Origin: Steroidobacter denitrificans
Lineage (GTDB): Bacteria; Pseudomonadota; Gammaproteobacteria; Steroidobacterales; Steroidobacteraceae
Assembly (NCBI RefSeq): GCF_001579945.1
Contig: NZ_CP011971.1
Coordinates: forward strand, 2,912,030 to 2,976,029
Direction of reading: 5' to 3'
DNA length: 64,000 nt
Within the stretch, counting starts at the first letter, position 1. Each line of letters starts with the position of its first letter. Shown in pieces: positions 33,854 to 43,034 of the stretch. Made by a program: the position numbers and the translations under genes. Under the pieces are notes generated by a model. That model did not search any database, had not been told where the DNA came from, and was given only the letters and a program-made list of their open reading frames with translations.

Positions 33854-34236
33854 TCAGGTGCTCGGATTGCCTGCCCGCAGGATCACGCCGCGCTCCTTTG
33901 CCCGTTTCTGCATGGCGCCGGCGACGGGTACGCCGCGATCGGGACGAATGGTGCGCGCTTCGCTGCCGTTCTCGCATTGGGCCGCTCACAGTCCAACACG
34001 CGGTAGGCTTCCCGCACTGAGTCAGCGCGCCTCTGAAATCGTAGCTGGAAGCATTCTCATTACTTCCGGATTTATGATTACGGCACATCGAGATCTGGAA
34101 CGAAGAGCGCGGGAGACTCTGGTATTCCCTCTTCGATCATTCTAAACTTTTGGATGCGGCCCAAGCTTTTAACGGCGACCATCGCCGCCATCTACAAGAA
34201 TCCCAGCAAAATCGTTCCGCACCTCAAAGAGCCCCA
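33854..34236. other. Intergenic region without a clear gene
   Basis: 383 bp. The minus strand from about 33985 to 33854 reads SEARTIRPDRGVPVAGAMQK then RAKERGVILRAGNPST and stop, which looks protein-like and may be the tail of a lost gene, but it has no start and I cannot name it. The promoter for the cytochrome-porin gene should lie near the right end. Confidence 0.35.
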
Positions 34237-35520
34237 ATGAGAAGCATTCACACCTCGTGGATCTGTGCTCTCGCCTTCACAAGCTGGATCGTGCCCACGA
34301 TATCGCAGGCGATGCCGGCACTCGCGCGGCAATACAACGTAAGCTGCGTTGCCTGCCACGATGCGTTTCCACGGTTGAATGCGTTCGGGGAGTCGTTTGT
34401 AGCGAATAATTTTCGAATGCCGAATTGGCGACAGACCATGATGGATCTGGGCGACGAGCGGCTGGCGCTGCCCAAGTCCTTGCCGCTTGCCATTCGTGCG
34501 CAGGCCTTCGCGCAAGGCCGTGAGGGAAAAGATATCGATCCGGCGACCGGTCCGACCGGTAACGCCTCGAGCTTCGACTTTCAGGCTCCCTACCTCATCA
34601 AGCTGCTGTCGAGCGCGCCGCTCTCCGAACACATCACGTTCTACTTCTACGCAATCTTCGCGGAGAAGGGCGGTAACGGCGAAACGCTCATCGAAGATGC
34701 GTGGTTTCGCCACGACGACGTGCTCGGCTCAGGTGTGGGCGCACAGCTCGGACAGTTCCAAATATCGGACTTGATGTTTCCGCGCGAGGTTCGCCTCACC
34801 TTCCAGGACTTCTATGCCTATCGGGCTGCGGGCATCACCTACGACCGCGGCCTGATCCTCGATCGAGGCTTGGGTCCGCTCGAGATAGCCATCGGGGCCG
34901 TGAACGGCAATGGCATCACCCAGAACTTTGCCATCGATAGTCCAGGCTATCGCCGGCCCGACCAGATGTTCGACAACGACTCGCGCAAGAGCCTGTTTGG
35001 GCGTGTCGGTTTCACTGCGGGCGGAGTGAATGTCGGAATTTTCGGCCTCGCCGGACAACAGAAGAGTGCGGCGGGCTTCGCAGGTACCGTGACCGGCAAC
35101 CGCGACACGGACAAGCGCATCCTCGGGCTCGATCTCTCCGGCAGTCTCACACCGAGAACTCACTGGTTCGCGCAAGGTATATGGAACGAGTGGCGCGACT
35201 TCCTCGATGCCGAGCCACAACGCGATTTCGACTGGTTCGGCGGCTTCGTCGGCGTGGACCATGTCCACAGCGACCGTTGGACCTTCTCTCTGCTCTACAA
35301 CTATGCCGAGGCGGATGATTTCCGCGGCACCGGCACGGTATTCGAGGGTATCAAGATCAACTCGCTCTCGTTAGCCTCCTCGTATTACTTCATGCGCAAT
35401 CTCAAGGGTGTCATCGAAGTGAACGCCGACCTGCTCAGCAAGGATCCCGCGGGCCCGCCGTACGTGGGTCACCAGACCCGGGAGCACTACCTGTTGATCG
35501 GATTCGATGCGGCCTATTGA
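34237..35520 (+). CDS. Cyc2-like fused monohaem cytochrome-porin
   Basis: A 427-residue outer-membrane protein. After a signal peptide ending near residue 25 comes PALARQYNVSCVACHDAFPR then LNAFGESF, with the haem site CVACH at 37-41. This is the N-terminal pattern of Cyc2-type proteins ('FARQTGxxCxACHxxxxPxLNxFG'). The remaining 370 residues alternate like a porin barrel and end in LIGFDAAY. In iron oxidisers Cyc2 moves electrons across the outer membrane; similar fusions exist in bacteria not known to oxidise iron. ATG 34237 is the last start before the signal peptide. Confidence 0.72.
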   Translation: MRSIHTSWICALAFTSWIVPTISQAMPALARQYNVSCVACHDAFPRLNAFGESFVANNFRMPNWRQTMMDLGDERLALPKSLPLAIRAQAFAQGREGKDIDPATGPTGNASSFDFQAPYLIKLLSSAPLSEHITFYFYAIFAEKGGNGETLIEDAWFRHDDVLGSGVGAQLGQFQISDLMFPREVRLTFQDFYAYRAAGITYDRGLILDRGLGPLEIAIGAVNGNGITQNFAIDSPGYRRPDQMFDNDSRKSLFGRVGFTAGGVNVGIFGLAGQQKSAAGFAGTVTGNRDTDKRILGLDLSGSLTPRTHWFAQGIWNEWRDFLDAEPQRDFDWFGGFVGVDHVHSDRWTFSLLYNYAEADDFRGTGTVFEGIKINSLSLASSYYFMRNLKGVIEVNADLLSKDPAGPPYVGHQTREHYLLIGFDAAY

Positions 35521-36152: not shown

Positions 36153-36377
36153 ATGCAAACGCCACTGAGCAGGCTCCCGCAGCTCGTTACATGCACGTTG
36201 CTCGTAGCCGCGCTCGCCGGCTGCACACTCGTCAAGCCCTGGGAACGAGACCTGCACGCCCGCCCGGACATGCAGCCGGACAGTCTAGACATCGCCATCG
36301 ACGAGCACATCTATTTCAGCAAGGAAGCCTCGAGCGGCGGCCGCGGCTTCGGCGGCGGAGGTTGCGGATGCAACTGA
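36153..36377 (+). CDS. DUF4266 lipoprotein with Gly/Cys tail
   Basis: A 74-residue lipoprotein: signal peptide with lipobox LAGC (Cys24), VKPWERDLHARPDM, a conserved HIYFSKEA segment and the end GGGGCGCN. These define DUF4266, nearly always found with DUF3570 and often ApbE and a thioredoxin. The function is unknown; two terminal Cys could bind metal or form a disulfide. It overlaps the DUF3570 gene by 10 bp. Confidence 0.87.
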   Translation: MQTPLSRLPQLVTCTLLVAALAGCTLVKPWERDLHARPDMQPDSLDIAIDEHIYFSKEASSGGRGFGGGGCGCN

Positions 36378-37666
36378 AGAACAATGTACGATCGATCGGC
36401 AACGCCCTCGCCTCGGCCACGTGCGGACTTCTGGGCGCCCTGCCCGCCGGTAGAGTGCTCGCCGAGGAAGCTCCGAAGTGGCAGGTCGATTCGGCTCTGC
36501 TCTACTACTCGGAAGACGATGATCGGGTGCGCGACATCAGCTTGAAGGCAGCGATTCGGCGCGCGTTCGACGAAGACCGCTCGCTCGACATTGGCCTGTC
36601 CGTGGACACGCTCACCGGCGCTTCGCCATCCGGTGCGGTACCGACGGATGCCGTACAGACCTTCACGCGACCCTCCGGTAACGGCAGCTATCAGATCGCG
36701 CCCGGAGAACTGCCGCTCGACGATACTTTCAAGGACACGCGCGTCGCGCTGTCGGCGACCTGGTCGCAGCCCTTGGGTGAACGCTCCCGCATCGCGCTCG
36801 GCGTGAACGGCTCAAACGAGTACGACTACCTGCACCTCGGCGCGGACGTGCGCTTGGAACGCGACTTCAATCAGCGCAACACGACGCTGTTCATCGGCGC
36901 GGCCTACGGCAACGAGAGCATCGATCCGGTCGGCGGTACGCCCGTACCGTTCGCTCCCATGCGCGGCACCGACGACCCGGCGAGTAAGCGCGGCACGGAT
37001 TCAAAGACCGTCGTAGACGGTTTGATCGGCCTTACACAGATTCTGAGCCGCCGCGCATTGCTTTCGTTGAGCTACTCGTACAGCCTGTCCGACGGTTATC
37101 TCACCGATCCGTACAAGGTGCTGTCCGTTCTCGACCCCGGCACCGGGCGCACAATCGCAGGTCCGTCAGGCAGCGACCTAGGCCTGTACCTGTACGAGAG
37201 ACGGCCGGACTCGCGCACCAAGCAGAGCCTGTATACGGAGTGGCGTTACGCTCTGGATCGCGACTCGGCACGCGTAGGCTATCGCCTCATGGACGACGAC
37301 TGGGGTGTGACTTCCAGTACGCTCGAAGCCGCCTACCGCTGGAACCGGTCGCCTTATGACTACCTCGAACCACGGGTTCGCTACTACACGCAATCCGCGG
37401 CGGATTTCTACCGGACATATCTGCTTGACAGCCAGCCCCTGCCACAATACGCATCCGCGGACTACCGCTTGGCGGATCTTGACGCGCTCACCGTCGGACT
37501 CAAGTACGGGCGCAGGGCGGCCTTCGGCGAGTACTCGTTACGGCTCGAGTACTATCGCCAGACTGCGGACGCGCACGAGCCAGGCTTCGGCGTCCTTACC
37601 GGCTACGAACTGGTGCCACCGCTGACCGCTATCATGGTGCAGTTCGGCTACAAGTTCGGTTTCTGA
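36368..37666 (+). CDS. DUF3570 outer-membrane protein
   Basis: A 432-residue barrel protein: signal peptide to about residue 32 (ALPAGRVLAEEAPKW), then DSALLYYSEDDDRVRDIS and alternating strands, ending in QFGYKFGF. A conserved segment SVDTLTGASPSGAVP (D80-S86) resembles the D-x-x-[ST]-G-A-[ST] site that ApbE flavinylates in NqrB/NqrC-type proteins. The apbE gene is 20 bp downstream. No function is established for DUF3570; a covalent-flavin role is my inference. Confidence 0.85.
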   Translation: MQLKNNVRSIGNALASATCGLLGALPAGRVLAEEAPKWQVDSALLYYSEDDDRVRDISLKAAIRRAFDEDRSLDIGLSVDTLTGASPSGAVPTDAVQTFTRPSGNGSYQIAPGELPLDDTFKDTRVALSATWSQPLGERSRIALGVNGSNEYDYLHLGADVRLERDFNQRNTTLFIGAAYGNESIDPVGGTPVPFAPMRGTDDPASKRGTDSKTVVDGLIGLTQILSRRALLSLSYSYSLSDGYLTDPYKVLSVLDPGTGRTIAGPSGSDLGLYLYERRPDSRTKQSLYTEWRYALDRDSARVGYRLMDDDWGVTSSTLEAAYRWNRSPYDYLEPRVRYYTQSAADFYRTYLLDSQPLPQYASADYRLADLDALTVGLKYGRRAAFGEYSLRLEYYRQTADAHEPGFGVLTGYELVPPLTAIMVQFGYKFGF

Positions 37667-37686: not shown

Positions 37687-38592
37687 ATGACGTCCGTGCC
37701 CGCTTCACCACAGCTCGAGTTGCAGCGCGAGCGTGGCTTCTGGCGTGCTTCGTTCTACGCCATGGCAAACCCCTGCGAGGTTCTGTGCGAGACCGCCGAC
37801 GAAGCGATTGTGCGCCGCATTGGTGCACTCGTCATGCAGGAAGCTGCGCGCATCGAGCGCAAGTTCAGCCGCTATCGTTCCGATAGCGTCGTTCATACGA
37901 TCAACACGGGGAGTGGCCGACCGCTGGTGGTCGATGACGAAACCGCAGATCTCATCGATTTCGGCGCCGCATTGTGGCAGCTGAGCGAGGGCGCGTTCGA
38001 TCTCACCTCGGGCGTGCTGCGGCGCGCCTGGCGGTTCGATTCCGGCGAAGCGCTGCCGTCCGCGAGCAGTGTTGCAGCGTTACGCAAGTACATCGGATGG
38101 CAGCACGTAAGCTGGCTGCGGCCGGAATTGATCCTGCCGAAAGGCATGGAGATCGACGTCGGCGGCATCGGGAAAGAATACGCCGTCGATCGCGCCGTAG
38201 CTCTCACCCAGACCGCCACCGACGATCCGGTGCTGGTTAACTTCGGCGGCGACCTGCGTGCCGCTGGTGCGCAGCCCCACGAAGGCGCTTGGCAAGTCGG
38301 CATAGAGTCTGCCGCAGCGCCCGAGCGTGCCGGTCAAGTGATCCGGCTGGGCGCAGGCGCCCTGGCCACGAGCGGCGCCACGCGTCATTTCATCGAGGTG
38401 AATGGAAAACGGTACGGCCACATCATCGATGCTCGCACCGGATGGCCGACGACCGATGCGCCGCGTTCGGTCACAGTCGCCGCGGACACCTGCAGCCAAG
38501 CAGGCGTTTTCACCACGCTCGCCATGCTGCGGGGCGCGAATGCCGAGGAATTCCTGAAAATGGAAGGCGTGCAGTTCTGGTGTCTTCGATAG
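37687..38592 (+). CDS. apbE: ApbE, FAD:protein FMN transferase
   Basis: A 301-residue ApbE with FYAMANPCEV at the front, IDVGGIGKEYAVDRAV (the usual DxGGIAKGYxVD), VNFGGDLRAAG and HIIDARTGWP, the FAD- and metal-binding set. It attaches FMN to Thr/Ser of exported proteins. No signal peptide or lipobox is evident, unlike most periplasmic ApbE proteins; other starts do not supply one. The last gene of the TlpA-DUF4266-DUF3570-ApbE set, it supplies the likely modifying enzyme. Confidence 0.9.
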   Translation: MTSVPASPQLELQRERGFWRASFYAMANPCEVLCETADEAIVRRIGALVMQEAARIERKFSRYRSDSVVHTINTGSGRPLVVDDETADLIDFGAALWQLSEGAFDLTSGVLRRAWRFDSGEALPSASSVAALRKYIGWQHVSWLRPELILPKGMEIDVGGIGKEYAVDRAVALTQTATDDPVLVNFGGDLRAAGAQPHEGAWQVGIESAAAPERAGQVIRLGAGALATSGATRHFIEVNGKRYGHIIDARTGWPTTDAPRSVTVAADTCSQAGVFTTLAMLRGANAEEFLKMEGVQFWCLR

Positions 38593-38617: not shown

Positions 38618-39172
38618 TCAATCCTTCACGCGCTTGCGTCCGGTAACCATTGCGCGCACCAGATTTTCACGATGACGCAAGCTGCTGAATATGACGCCGA
38701 CGATATGGAGACCGACCAGGAAAAGCGTGCCGTTGGCAAATCCTTCATGCACCTCTTCCAGCGCTTCGCTGCCCCAAAAGGCATCGCTGGTAAGCAACCA
38801 GCCGGTCGTGCCCGTGCCGATCAACATCAGCAGCAGCGCCACGATCATCACGGCACCTGCCGGGTTGTGACCGAGGTGGCGCGCCTCACGACGCGCCACC
38901 AGGTCTTTCAGGTAACTGATCATCTTGCGCGGCGTCGGCACGAAACTGGAAAATCGCGCGTACTGCGTACCCACCAGTCCCCATGCCAGACGAAATGCAA
39001 CCAGCCCGAGCGCGGTGTAGCCAAGAGCTTGATGCCACCAGTCGCCATCGTCGCCGAGAGCATAGGCACCGAAGAAAACCAGCACCAGTGACCAGTGAAA
39101 GATCCGCACCAGCGGGTCCCACACCCGTACCGTTTCGGCACTGCTCGCGCTTACGGTCGAGACGGGCTTCAT
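38618..39172 (-). CDS. Cytochrome b561-type membrane protein
   Basis: A 184-residue four-helix di-haem cytochrome b (VWDPLVRIFHWSLVLVFFGA; WWHQALGYTALGLVAFRLAW; VGLHIVGVIFSSLRHRENLV), with the His ligands HW, H, H and H placed as in YceJ/Ni-hydrogenase b subunits. It passes electrons between quinol and periplasmic partners. The start overlaps the PepSY gene stop by 4 bp, so the two form an operon divergent from the response regulator. Confidence 0.9.
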   Translation of the reverse strand: MKPVSTVSASSAETVRVWDPLVRIFHWSLVLVFFGAYALGDDGDWWHQALGYTALGLVAFRLAWGLVGTQYARFSSFVPTPRKMISYLKDLVARREARHLGHNPAGAVMIVALLLMLIGTGTTGWLLTSDAFWGSEALEEVHEGFANGTLFLVGLHIVGVIFSSLRHRENLVRAMVTGRKRVKD

Positions 39173-39456
39173 TTCTTGCCTGCCCGGCCAACGACGCTGG
39201 CATCAACCGGATTGACGAAGAGTTCGACTTTCTTGCCATTCTTGTCCTTGGCGTACACCTCATAACAGCTTCCGCCCGTCTTGACCTTTCCCACGCTATA
39301 CCCTTGGGTTTCAAACTTGGCCTTGACGTCGGCGGGGCTCATCCACTTGGATTGCGGTTGGTTGGTGCATTCACCGTCATAGGTGGAAGCAAAAGCGCCG
39401 AACGACAAGGCAAGAAGTGTCAGCGCAGTCGTGAGCTTGGCGGATCGTATATTCAT
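39169..39456 (-). CDS. PepSY-domain periplasmic protein
   Basis: A 95-residue exported protein: signal peptide (ALTLLALSFGAFA), TYDGECTNQPQSKWMSPADV, then a PepSY fold (KFETQGYSVGKVKTGGSCYE, ending VNPVDASVVGRAGKK). Small PepSY proteins commonly accompany cytochrome b561 and a PmrAB/QseBC-like system. ATG 39456 has aaagga upstream. Divergent from the response regulator 191 bp away. Confidence 0.88.
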   Translation of the reverse strand: MNIRSAKLTTALTLLALSFGAFASTYDGECTNQPQSKWMSPADVKAKFETQGYSVGKVKTGGSCYEVYAKDKNGKKVELFVNPVDASVVGRAGKK

Positions 39457-39647
39457 GATATTTCCTTTCAGCAAGGTGAGGTTGACTTGGCGGGATGCCG
39501 GTATGCCGCTTGGCATGAGTGCAAATTGCGGTTAGGCGCTGAAGCGAACCTTAAGAAGGAGAAGCCAATTTTGCCGCCGCTTTCAGATCGCCTTAAGGTT
39601 GAATGCCGATACGGAGGATTCGCGCGAGACAGGCGGTTGGAGAGACG

Positions 39648-40313
39648 ATGCGCTTATTGCTGGTAGAGGATGACCCGATCCTCGGAAACGGCATTGAAGC
39701 CGGTTTGAAGCAGGCTGGCTTTACCGTGGACTGGGCTCGGGATGGCCGCAGCGCTCAACTTGCACTGGGAACGACCGCCTATGAACTGGTGGTGCTGGAT
39801 CTGGGCCTTCCACGTGTGACCGGTCTGGATCTGCTGCGACAATTGCGTGCGCGTGGCAATGATTTGCCCGTGCTGGTACTCACTGCCCGTGATACCGTAC
39901 GCGACCGCGTCACCGGCTTGGAAGCGGGCGCTGACGATTACCTGATCAAACCGTTTGATCTGACCGAGCTGGTGGCGCGCATCCGAGCGCTGCTCCGGCG
40001 CGCTCACGGCCGAAGCATAGATGCCATTCACTATCGAGATCTGGTATTGGTGCCCGACAGCCTGACAGTGACACGTGGTGAGAGAACCATCTCGCTCTCA
40101 AAGCGAGAGTGCGCGATTCTGGTCGACCTGCTGGAACATCGCGGCACGGCACTATCGCGCGCACGACTGGAAGAAAGTCTGTACGGCTGGAACGAAGAAG
40201 TCGAGAGCAACGCAGTCGAAGTGCATATCCACAACCTGCGTAAAAAGCTCGGAAGCGATCTGATCAAGACTATCCGCGGCGTCGGCTACCTGATCTCCAG
40301 GGAAGCGCCATGA
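39648..40313 (+). CDS. OmpR-family response regulator (QseB/PmrA-like)
   Basis: A 221-residue regulator: receiver domain (LLLVEDDPILGNGIEAGLKQ; phospho-Asp in VVLDLGLPR; K in LIKPFD) and winged-helix output (KRECAILVDLLEHRGTALSR; AVEVHIHNLRKKLG). Its stop overlaps the kinase start by 4 bp. It probably controls the divergent PepSY/cytochrome b genes and the ferric-reductase-like gene behind the kinase. Confidence 0.92.
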   Translation: MRLLLVEDDPILGNGIEAGLKQAGFTVDWARDGRSAQLALGTTAYELVVLDLGLPRVTGLDLLRQLRARGNDLPVLVLTARDTVRDRVTGLEAGADDYLIKPFDLTELVARIRALLRRAHGRSIDAIHYRDLVLVPDSLTVTRGERTISLSKRECAILVDLLEHRGTALSRARLEESLYGWNEEVESNAVEVHIHNLRKKLGSDLIKTIRGVGYLISREAP

Positions 40314-41665
40314 AGCGCTACTCCATCCGTCGTCGCCTGCTCTGGCTGCTACTCGGCAGCCTCGTTGTGGTCTGGAGCGCGATGCTAGGCGTCGGCTACC
40401 ACAAGGCGCACAAAGAAATTCATGAGCTTGCCGACGTCCGCCTGCAACAGGGAGCACACACGCTATTGACGCTCGATCTCAAGCGTTTGGCGCGGCTCGC
40501 AAAGACAAGTGAAGCGAACAAAGCGGAACACGGCGAAGACGATGAACACGGGGACGAAGCGCCGCCGCTGGCATTTCAGGTTTGGAGCGACGACGGCAAA
40601 CTGCTCCTGGCCAGCGCTGGAGCCCCCGATGCGCCCTATCGGCCGGGAAAGGGTTATGCCACCCGAATCATCGACCGTCGAGATTGGCGCAGTTACAGCG
40701 TGCATGATCGCAAACGTGACTATCAGGTGACGGTGCTGGAGCCGCTCTTCATACGCGAGCATCCTATTGCCGAGCTGGCCGGTCGCATGGGCCAGATGCT
40801 GGCTCTGGCTCTGCCATTGCTGGCGCTGCTGACCTGGCTCAGCATCCGCCATGGTCTGCGGCCACTGATGCGGCTGTCGGATGCGATCGGCGCGCGTGAT
40901 GCCATCAACCTGGAGGCGATTCAATTGCAACAGGTACCGGATGAAGTACGCCCGCTGATCACCGCGCTGAACGGACTGCTGCAACGGCTGGCGCACTCGC
41001 TCGACAAGGAACGCGCGTTCACGGCCGATGCCGCGCACGAATTGCGCACGCCTTTGGCGGCCATCAAGGTGCAGGCGGAAGTAGCGTTGGCGGCACAGGA
41101 TGAGGCGATCCGCCGACGAGCCATCGAACAAGTGATTGCCGGCGTCAACCGCACCACGCACCTGGCACAACAACTTTTGCTGCTGGCACGACTCGAGCAC
41201 GTCGAGCACGATACACGCCAAGCAGTCGATCTTGGCCAAGTGGCTGCCGACTGCATGGCGCAATGCGCAGACGAGGCTGGCCGGAAGGAAATCGAGTGCG
41301 AACTAGAGGCCGAGACGGACTGTGTCCTGCAAGGCGATCCGGCGATGCTTGCAGTACTGATCGACAACCTGCTCGACAACGCCATCAAGTACGGCCGCAG
41401 GGGCGGCCGCATCGTCGTCAGCGTGAGACGTGGTGCCGGTGCGCTACTGCTGGCCGTGGAAGATGATGGTAATGGCGTTTCAGAGACCGACCGCGCTCGC
41501 CTGCGGGACCGATTTTTTCGTATCGAAGGACAGGCCGTCCCGGGAAGCGGCTTGGGATTGTCCATCGTGGAGAAAATCGCCGCTGCGCATGGCGGCACCG
41601 TTGACATCGGTGTCGGCCTCGGCGGGCGCGGACTGGGTGTGAGCGTGAACTTTCCCAATCGATGA
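40310..41665 (+). CDS. QseC/PmrB-like sensor histidine kinase
   Basis: A 451-residue kinase: helix 1 (LLWLLLGSLVVVWSAMLGVG), a periplasmic sensor with a His/Asp/Glu-rich loop (NKAEHGEDDEHGDEAPP) that could bind a metal, helix 2 (ALALPLLALLTWLSI), HAMP-like linker, H-box AHELRTPLAAI and ATPase domain (NLLDNAIKYG; GSGLGLSIVEKI). Paired with the regulator just upstream. Confidence 0.92.
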   Translation: MKRYSIRRRLLWLLLGSLVVVWSAMLGVGYHKAHKEIHELADVRLQQGAHTLLTLDLKRLARLAKTSEANKAEHGEDDEHGDEAPPLAFQVWSDDGKLLLASAGAPDAPYRPGKGYATRIIDRRDWRSYSVHDRKRDYQVTVLEPLFIREHPIAELAGRMGQMLALALPLLALLTWLSIRHGLRPLMRLSDAIGARDAINLEAIQLQQVPDEVRPLITALNGLLQRLAHSLDKERAFTADAAHELRTPLAAIKVQAEVALAAQDEAIRRRAIEQVIAGVNRTTHLAQQLLLLARLEHVEHDTRQAVDLGQVAADCMAQCADEAGRKEIECELEAETDCVLQGDPAMLAVLIDNLLDNAIKYGRRGGRIVVSVRRGAGALLLAVEDDGNGVSETDRARLRDRFFRIEGQAVPGSGLGLSIVEKIAAAHGGTVDIGVGLGGRGLGVSVNFPNR

Positions 41666-41684
41666 ATCATTTCAAGGATGCCCT

Positions 41685-43034
41685 ATGCGAAACGTAAAGC
41701 GTGCCTTTTGGGGGGCGTTTCTTCTCCTGGTCGTCTTGTGGCTCATGGCCGAGCCCACGGTCTTTCGATCTTCCACCTTCTTCGGTTTGCGCGCAACCAT
41801 GGTGCAATTGACCGGCGTTGTCGCCATGGGCTGCATGGGTTTGGCGATGATACTGGCGCTGCGGCCACTGTGGCCCCAAGTCTGGATGGGCGGCCTCGAC
41901 AAGATGTACCGGTTACACAAATGGCTCGGCATCTCAGTCCTGGTCGTGGCCACCATTCACTGGATGTGGGCGAAATGGCCGAAATGGGCGGTAGGCTGGG
42001 GCTGGCTCGAACGTCCGGCACGCGGTGCCAAAGCTCAGATCGACAATCCGGTCGCGGCCTGGCTGTCGAACCAACGCGGCTTGGCAGAAGGCGTGGGTGA
42101 ATGGGCCTTCTACGCCGCCGCAGCACTGATTGCCTTGGCGCTGATTCATAAATTCCCGTACCGGCTGTTCTACAAGACGCATCGTCTCCTGGCCGTTGCT
42201 TATCTGGTGCTGGTCTTCCACGCCATCGTACTGATGAATTTCAGCTACTGGGCGTCACCTGTGGGCTGGCTGACAGCGGTACTGCTCGCCGCCGGAACCT
42301 GGGCAGCGCTCGTAGTACTGGCTCGCCGGATTGGCGCGAGCCGGAAAGTCCCGGGAACAATCACGTCCATGCGCTATTTCGCCGACGTGAGGGCTGTTGA
42401 AATCGAGACCGACGTGCAGGGTTGGCCGGGTCACAAACCTGGCCAGTTCGCCTTTGTCACATCACACGCCTCGGAAGGTGCACACCCCTACACCATCGCT
42501 TCCAGTTGGCACCCGCAGAACCCCAGGATCACCTTCATAGTCAAGGAACTGGGAGACTACACCCGCTGCCTGCGGGAAAATCTACATGCTGGGCATACGG
42601 TGAGAATCGAGGGGCCATATGGCTGCTTCACCTTCGACGACGGCCGGGCGCACCAGATTTGGATCGGCGGCGGCATCGGTATCACGCCCTTCATCGCACG
42701 TATGAAGCACATGGCGCTCGAACAGAAGGAGCGGGACTGGCCGGAAAACCAACGGATCGATCTCTTCCACAGCACCGCGGAAGTCGATCAGGAGGCGCTC
42801 GACAAGTTGACGGCTGATGCCGAGTCGGCGAACGTAACACTGCATATTCTGATTGACACGCGTGATGGCTTCCTGACGGGTGAACGCCTCCGGACTGCCG
42901 TGCCTGAATGGCGCAAAACGAGCATCTGGTTCTGCGGGCCAGCCGCCTTTGGCGAGGCGCTGAAGCGCGACCTGGCCGCTCACGGATATCCTGTAGAACA
43001 GCATTTCCATCAGGAGCTTTTCGCAATGCGGTAG
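41685..43034 (+). CDS. Ferric-reductase-like transmembrane flavoprotein
   Basis: A 449-residue protein: about six N-terminal helices with haem-ligand His residues (YRLHKWLGISVLVVATIHWM; YKTHRLLAVAYLVLVFHAIV), then a FAD-binding domain (KPGQFAFVTSHASEGAHPYT) and an NAD-binding domain (IWIGGGIGITPFIARMKHMA; WFCGPAAFGEALKRDL). This is the FRE/NOX-like 'predicted ferric reductase' family; the substrate (Fe3+, O2 or another acceptor) is not fixed. It is 20 bp after the kinase gene. Confidence 0.9.
   Translation: MRNVKRAFWGAFLLLVVLWLMAEPTVFRSSTFFGLRATMVQLTGVVAMGCMGLAMILALRPLWPQVWMGGLDKMYRLHKWLGISVLVVATIHWMWAKWPKWAVGWGWLERPARGAKAQIDNPVAAWLSNQRGLAEGVGEWAFYAAAALIALALIHKFPYRLFYKTHRLLAVAYLVLVFHAIVLMNFSYWASPVGWLTAVLLAAGTWAALVVLARRIGASRKVPGTITSMRYFADVRAVEIETDVQGWPGHKPGQFAFVTSHASEGAHPYTIASSWHPQNPRITFIVKELGDYTRCLRENLHAGHTVRIEGPYGCFTFDDGRAHQIWIGGGIGITPFIARMKHMALEQKERDWPENQRIDLFHSTAEVDQEALDKLTADAESANVTLHILIDTRDGFLTGERLRTAVPEWRKTSIWFCGPAAFGEALKRDLAAHGYPVEQHFHQELFAMR

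Follow-up and report, generated by a model that had tools for sequence, protein, structure and literature searches.

The DUF3570 protein encoded in the window (the whole stretch of 64,000 nucleotides analyzed here) is a predicted outer-membrane β-barrel with a conserved flavinylation motif, and it is best explained as a surface-facing redox barrel whose FMN is loaded in the cytosol before export. We give this explanation as a whole a probability of about 0.52. The 16-strand barrel would carry a single FMN; its attachment residue, Ser86, would lie where strand 3 ends on the extracellular side and point into the mouth of the barrel. A dedicated leaderless ApbE would attach the FMN, most likely in the cytosol, to the unfolded precursor before Sec export and insertion. 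Electrons would pass between the periplasm and the barrel flavin by way of TlpA and the conserved CxC tail of DUF4266, and the barrel would act as an outward-facing redox station, perhaps with metal ions as its target. The core idea of ApbE flavinylation of DUF3570, together with the gene set, is already published; what the preliminary description of this DNA adds to that picture is the outer-membrane barrel. The finding is raised by features that come together here: a probable outer-face site, a leaderless ApbE subclass in which the changes at the metal site are coupled, and, in relatives, a putative heme motif within the same loop.

The DUF3570 locus and its flavinylation motif

Pfam DUF3570 spans residues 12–430 of the barrel protein as a full-length domain (E 9e-125). 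The gene order is TlpA-like, DUF4266, DUF3570, and ApbE, which places all four cluster families together (Table 1). The four-gene set of the preliminary description is thus present: Pfam identifies DUF4266 with its Cys tail (C-G-C-N) and the TlpA-like protein upstream of DUF3570, and apbE is the next gene. The DUF4266 and DUF3570 genes share ten bases in the window, and the same type of overlap (ATG CAA YT spanning the DUF4266 stop) recurs in 54 of the 147 homologues that end in CGCN. Searches with the DUF3570 and DUF4266 proteins gave no match in NCBIfam, and the viral contigs searched gave no match. The source genome encodes one DUF3570, three ApbEs, one DsbD, and two FMN_bind proteins. One of the ApbEs has a lipobox (L002), one is leaderless with a G/D residue pair, and one has the E/G pair described below. 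The operon contains no DsbD; the single copy in the genome is at C1:2677136, about 270 kb off and outside the window.

Table 1. Features of the DUF3570 locus, in window coordinates
Feature	Position	Strand	Basis
TlpA/ResA-like exported thioredoxin (WCTPC), 166 aa	35649..36149	+	Redoxin/thioredoxin Pfam matches
DUF4266 small lipoprotein (lipobox LAGC, C-terminal CGCN), 74 aa	36153..36377	+	Pfam DUF4266, 2.9e-19
Codons of the DUF4266 C-x-C tail (C71, C73)	36363..36371	+	DUF3570 start (36368) falls within
DUF3570 predicted outer-membrane β-barrel, 432 aa, N-terminal signal	36368..37666	+	Pfam DUF3570, AlphaFold2, Foldseek
Predicted flavinylation motif D80-T-L-T-G-A-S86 of DUF3570	36605..36625	+	Translation, alignment; homologous sites proven in the text of PMC8238504
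Long second loop of DUF3570, predicted extracellular, residues 85–122, begins within the motif	36620..36733	+	Model strand boundaries; side assigned by the order of strands and the length of loops
ApbE (FAD:protein FMN transferase) of the leaderless E164/G273 subclass, 301 aa	37687..38592	+	Pfam ApbE, 8.5e-63
Codon for ApbE E164, a position occupied by Gly in ordinary ApbE	38176..38178	+	Alignment
Codon for ApbE G273, position of the metal-ligand Asp of ordinary ApbE	38503..38505	+	Alignment to 1vrm; ligand table of PMC4767422
Response regulator and histidine kinase	39603..41665	+	Pfam

A 456-residue open frame upstream (34150–35520, plus strand) has no Pfam match; it contains one CxxCH (CVACH) near its N terminus followed by barrel-like-looking sequence, and it is possibly a monoheme cytochrome-porin beside the flavin barrel. 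The region after the operon (38618–43034) contains cytochrome b561 and PepSY_2 genes on the minus strand and, beyond them, a two-component pair and a ferric-reductase-like FAD/NAD protein identified by Pfam on the plus strand.

Translation confirms DTLTGAS as residues 80–86 of DUF3570, and the proposed fit to the ApbE site D-x-x-[ST]-G-A-[ST] is borne out by alignment. One genome scan found 252 relatives, and the best 80 were retained as the set of named loci. D..[ST]GA[ST] is intact in 77 of these best 80 of 252, and the other three read D.LTG[SP]S. The pattern arises in 135 of 20,000 shuffles of the protein's own residues, and the motif is judged to exceed chance because it is conserved across relatives. 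The window DUF3570 has a single [ST]GA[ST]; the second site of the C. luteolum type is absent, and other branches do have members with two (e.g., L145, L149, and L217). A DUF4266 homologue is present in 79, TlpA in 75, and ApbE in 73 of the best 80 of the 252 loci, and 72 of those 73 ApbEs adjoin DUF3570 on the same strand. Surveys found DUF3570 in 20 of 299 genomes of the host's phylum and 95 of 369 of its class, in 19 of 247 genomes of the phylum of L111 (Acidobacteriota; Acidobacteria in the record) and 15 of 162 of one order within it, and in 22 of 148 genomes of the phylum of L110 (Nitrospirota in the record); three of these surveys each include one or two matches under the Pfam cut-off.

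Meheust et al. (2021) co-expressed the C. luteolum DUF3570 with its ApbE and obtained a UV-fluorescent protein, and the text of that paper (PMC8238504) reports that the fluorescence was abolished only by Ser-to-Ala replacement at both [ST]GA[ST] sites. The same text describes clusters of ApbE, DUF3570, a thioredoxin-like protein, and DUF4266 with its CxC tail, some of them with DsbD, and counts 316 clusters without DsbD. Its first survey step removed genes without a predicted signal. The window operon contains the same four families and the same [ST]GA[ST] site type; it differs in having one site where the C. luteolum protein has two and no adjoining DsbD like that of the DsbD-type cluster, and the C. 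luteolum ApbE is outside the E/G versus G/D comparison made below. PMC8238504 was the sole paper found in literature searches for DUF3570 and for DUF4266. The main text of a 2024 follow-up (PMC11334425) does not contain DUF3570 and touches on the outer membrane in no more than a general remark. Conservation, the barrel model, and the published DUF3570 flavinylation together support the proposed reading of the motif as a genuine ApbE flavinylation site, conserved on an outer-membrane barrel protein. The window DUF3570 itself very probably carries FMN, and by analogy S86 is the residue expected to hold it.

The relationship between the motif and apbE was analyzed with degenerate sites defined as D..[ST][SN]A[ST] and with apbE counted when it was on the same strand within 1 kb. 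An apbE gene lies near 90 of 112 distinct loci with intact barrels (19 of the 112 have none and 3 more have no contig room), compared to 3 of 26 distinct loci with degenerate barrels after two duplicates were dropped. The suggested correlation of the motif with apbE is thus seen for adjacency, which favors intact sites. ApbE was present in 32 of 32 genomes in a whole-genome search and in 13 of 14 larger regions that were mapped, located upstream, downstream, or on the opposite strand. The idea that a degenerate motif means a lost apbE was rejected on these results. Loss is not the rule, and a split between ApbE types took the place of that reading.

Barrel model, position of the site, and electron path

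The AlphaFold2 model of DUF3570, based on 54 aligned sequences, has 16 long strands with a pLDDT of 86.7 and a pTM of 0.83. The signal-like N terminus, the even strand count, and the C-terminal Phe are those of an outer-membrane barrel. The 50 Foldseek matches listed are all outer-membrane proteins by title; they are generic barrels with no specific structural relative among them, and a PDB sequence search for barrel relatives gave one chance-level match only. All seven turns on one side of the barrel are short (2–5 residues), and five of the eight connections on the opposite side are long (17–38 residues). Long barrel loops normally face outward. By this rule, with the loop sides assigned from strand order alone, the motif would lie at the outer end of strand 3 where the 38-residue loop begins. 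Strand alternation suggests that the D80 and S86 side chains face the barrel lumen. The 40 most conserved positions include 30 in outer loops or the top thirds of strands, compared to 230 of 399 positions overall (p = 0.027), and this clustering gives modest backing to an outer-face site. We consider the outer-face position of the flavin site likely from the model.

The idea that this is an ordinary example of the described DUF3570/ApbE system, with a periplasmic rather than an outer-face flavin, agrees with the electron path proposed in the text of PMC8238504, which leads from DsbD to the thioredoxin-like protein and the flavin. We consider it improbable: the high-confidence barrel puts the motif at the long-loop end, and the conserved residues concentrate, modestly, at the same end. 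The words barrel, porin, and leaderless are absent from the main text of PMC8238504. With the site at the outer face, ApbE could not reach it after insertion from either the cytosol or the periplasm, so attachment should come earlier. The C. luteolum barrel protein was mostly in the insoluble pellet during the flavinylation test described in the text of PMC8238504; thus, an inserted barrel seems not to be needed.

Electron transfer from thiols to the flavin is a tentative part of the model. The DUF4266 tail reads CGCN in 147 of 158 homologues, and C71, G72, and C73 are invariant in 38 aligned sequences that were chosen for the CGCN ending. The tail has a pLDDT below 50 when DUF4266 is folded alone; a segment that is modeled with low confidence yet conserved is as expected of a docking part. 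A histidine kinase homologue is found in 43, a regulator in 37, and DsbD in 15 of 128 neighborhoods, where the kinase and regulator counts include the window and may be inflated by paralogues. A cupredoxin-like gene, identified by Pfam, occurs in 13 loci, a count taken from a separate neighbor clustering that contained antisense artifacts and was set aside for the operon's own neighbors. The two-component, DsbD, and cupredoxin-like neighbors are a hint, short of proof, of redox chemistry with metals at the surface. A flavin at the outer barrel mouth with a thiol relay would constitute an outer-membrane electron path without multiheme cytochromes.

The signals of DUF3570 homologues are less hydrophobic in the intact-site set than in the degenerate set (medians of 2.0 and 2.7 for 127 and 32 sequences), and A-T-C often occurs in the signal core among the rows listed. 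DUF3570 is fused to a C-terminal extension in L009/L142, L162, and L163, giving open frames of 904–920 residues. The L009 extension is Met/His-rich and has no match to a barrel-family Pfam.

The leaderless ApbE and the timing of FMN attachment

The window ApbE scores 212.8 bits in Pfam against a cut-off of 25.6. It has no signal peptide or lipobox from any possible start, and there is no in-frame upstream ATG, GTG, or TTG. ApbE flavinylation of exported proteins is thought to occur outside the cytosol. According to the review PMC12052999, a periplasmic location was essential for ordinary ApbE, and a leaderless ApbE is known for the cytosolic fumarate reductase of Klebsiella. The window ApbE likewise has no signal peptide, but the Klebsiella target stays in the cytosol, whereas the adjacent, proven-type substrate in the window is exported.

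The ApbEs of the fetched loci were compared as a set of 188 deduplicated sequences. The E164/G273 pair is present in 112 and the G164/D273 pair in 66; ten were excluded, four with other pairs (L218, L081, L228, and L306) and six with gaps. A leader is found in 0 of the 112 E/G proteins and in 60 of the 65 scorable G/D proteins (5 have none and 1 more is missing its N terminus), groups that are clustered by phylogeny and so not independent. Positions 164 and 273 are coupled, with 178 of the 182 ApbEs that have both letters being E/G or G/D and 4 discordant. The mean number of cysteines is 5.1 in E/G and 0.9 in G/D proteins. A leader was scored as ten consecutive residues, none of them D, E, K, R, H, N, or Q, with a mean hydropathy of ≥1.7 after a possible start codon, a rule that is not a trained predictor. 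A looser earlier rule flagged 9 of 105 lineage ApbEs; on reading, L193 alone among them seemed genuine, and its residue pair is the ordinary G/D. Among the five G/D proteins scored as having none, L246 seems to have a leader that escaped the rule. On a FastTree phylogeny of 146 barrels, built with the motif and loop columns removed and used without branch support, ApbE type changes twice over 81 labeled rows. The 56 E/G rows of this tree comprise 45 with [ST]GA[ST], 9 with a near form, and 2 others (L147 and L216). The lineage's ApbE looks like a distinct subclass that stays inside the cell, as judged from these alignments.

ApbE position 273 aligns with the Asp of the D-x-x-x-T site in 1vrm, and the window protein has Gly in place of this metal-site 1 Asp. 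The ligand table of PMC4767422 lists D280 and T284 among the site-1 ligands of E. coli Ftp, and G273 would correspond to D280 through the D-x-x-x-T pattern. Gly occupies position 273 in 98% of the lineage sequences with a letter there. Compared to the exported lipoprotein ApbE/Ftp of the NqrC/RnfG type, the window ApbE shares the domain and most active-site residues but is leaderless, has more cysteines, and has Asp-to-Gly at metal site 1 and Gly-to-Glu beside K163. Without the canonical metal-ligand Asp, the E/G ApbEs may be inactive or use another reaction.

The neighboring ApbE could be catalytically dead or modify a cytosolic protein, with the motif kept for loop folding. This idea draws on the missing Asp, which binds metal site 1 in E. 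coli Ftp (Table 3 of PMC4767422), and on the cytosolic fumarate reductase precedent in PMC12052999. We hold it to be quite improbable, since H245 (99%), D157 (99%), and K163 (100%) are kept in the lineage's ApbEs, whose consistent partner is DUF3570, a family with one substrate proven in the text of PMC8238504. Furthermore, an E/G ApbE is absent from the fetched regions of all 42 barrels scored as degenerate on the tree; those regions contain a G/D ApbE in 11 cases, a gapped one in 1, and no ApbE in 30.

Cytosolic attachment of FMN is slightly favored. The leaderless E/G ApbE stands beside DUF3570 in records of four named phyla (Proteobacteria, Acidobacteria, Nitrospirota, and Krumholzibacteriia). 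Six E/G rows occur among 40 comparison ApbE rows, which count one protein of the source genome twice and include two that lack a letter at position 164, 273, or both, and all six adjoin a DUF3570 by coordinates. This distribution argues against loading of Ser86 in the periplasm before insertion by an exported ApbE encoded elsewhere, with the leaderless neighbor doing other work such as cytosolic flavin handling. That route has a candidate enzyme in the lipobox ApbE of the genome (L002), and a sister lineage pairs DUF3570 with exported ApbEs. We nevertheless rate it unlikely, as E/G proteins among the sampled control ApbEs are found only beside DUF3570, and the other ApbEs of the genome may have its two FMN_bind proteins as their clients. 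Intact sites are also paired with exported ordinary ApbEs in L378 of the Nitrospirota set, where they are in tandem, and in L360 of the Acidobacteriota set, which has TGAS. Gly in the motif was rejected as a marker of the leaderless ApbE on the basis of these two loci.

A literature search for precursors exported by Sec with FMN already attached found no earlier case. The exported barrel and the leaderless ApbE occur together across the whole lineage, which makes the timing question directly testable, and cytosolic loading, if true, would be a further example of cofactor attachment ahead of Sec export.

Relatives with heme-type or degenerate sites

A CxxCH directly follows the motif copy in 12 of 29 distinct Acidobacteriota DUF3570 loci (DA[IV][ST][AG][AS]SDSC.RCH; L371 repeats L315 and was left out), a count inflated by the choice of one order for searching once its first members were known. 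It is a putative heme-c motif at the flavin site. The flavin motif is mostly degraded in these 12 barrels, and L360 retains an intact TGAS. We did not detect CxxCH at the site in any of the 19 Nitrospirota regions. Among 178 barrels scanned, it occurs at the site only in L315, L318, and L319, and 161 of the 178 have no cysteine past about residue 75 of the trimmed sequence. The putative heme motif was gained once on the FastTree of 146 barrels.

Eleven Acidobacteriota loci (L303–L313) have [ST]GA[ST] (TGSS in L305) and, in ten of the eleven, the leaderless E/G ApbE; the L306 ApbE is split over two frames. The other 18 distinct Acidobacteriota places have degenerate or heme-type sites, with the intact TGAS of L360 and an intact second copy in L316 among them. 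Their readable ApbE pairs are G/D, mostly with a signal-like N terminus; the regions of L315 and L366 contain no ApbE, and the L317 and L370 ApbEs are gapped. Nine ApbEs near heme-type barrels are readable at the metal-site Thr, and eight have Lys or Arg there; Lys is also found at this position in 2 of the comparison rows, so this sign alone is weak and not special to the heme branch. The ApbEs of L365 and L369 lack the conserved His by alignment. It is as if flavin transfer were eroding near the heme-motif barrels.

Cyc2-type porin-cytochrome fusions have one covalent redox cofactor on an outer-membrane barrel, in an N-terminal heme domain. To our knowledge, they contain no DUF3570 or DUF4266. 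The Acidobacteriota CxxCH barrels would resemble Cyc2 even more closely than the window barrel does. A branch that put c-type heme at the flavin site would make the site a general redox socket of the family. The joint reading combines FMN loading of the unfolded barrel by a dedicated cytosolic ApbE subclass whose metal ligand has moved, export of the cofactor by Sec, a surface flavin fed by thiols, and a redox socket in the family; it is doubtful as a conjunction. The heme-motif branch, with its change in the same loop, offers a natural test of which component carries the electrons. No heme variant is reported in the running text of PMC8238504, as distinct from its figures, and our literature searches did not find the outer-end motif on a 16-strand barrel, the leaderless E/G ApbE subclass, or the Acidobacteriota CxxCH variant.

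Many barrels of the degenerate lineage (L184, L189, L175, and similar) carry D..[ST]xA[ST] twice in tandem, with Ser or Thr at the Gly position. The copies retain the Asp, Ala, and Ser, and they are possibly a relaxed flavinylation motif. Loci L222–L235 of the degenerate-site lineage (e.g., L224) have a larger conserved cluster of an HZS_alpha-like heme protein, an SH3 protein, an OMP_b-brl protein, TlpA, DUF4266, and DUF3570, with ApbE nearby.
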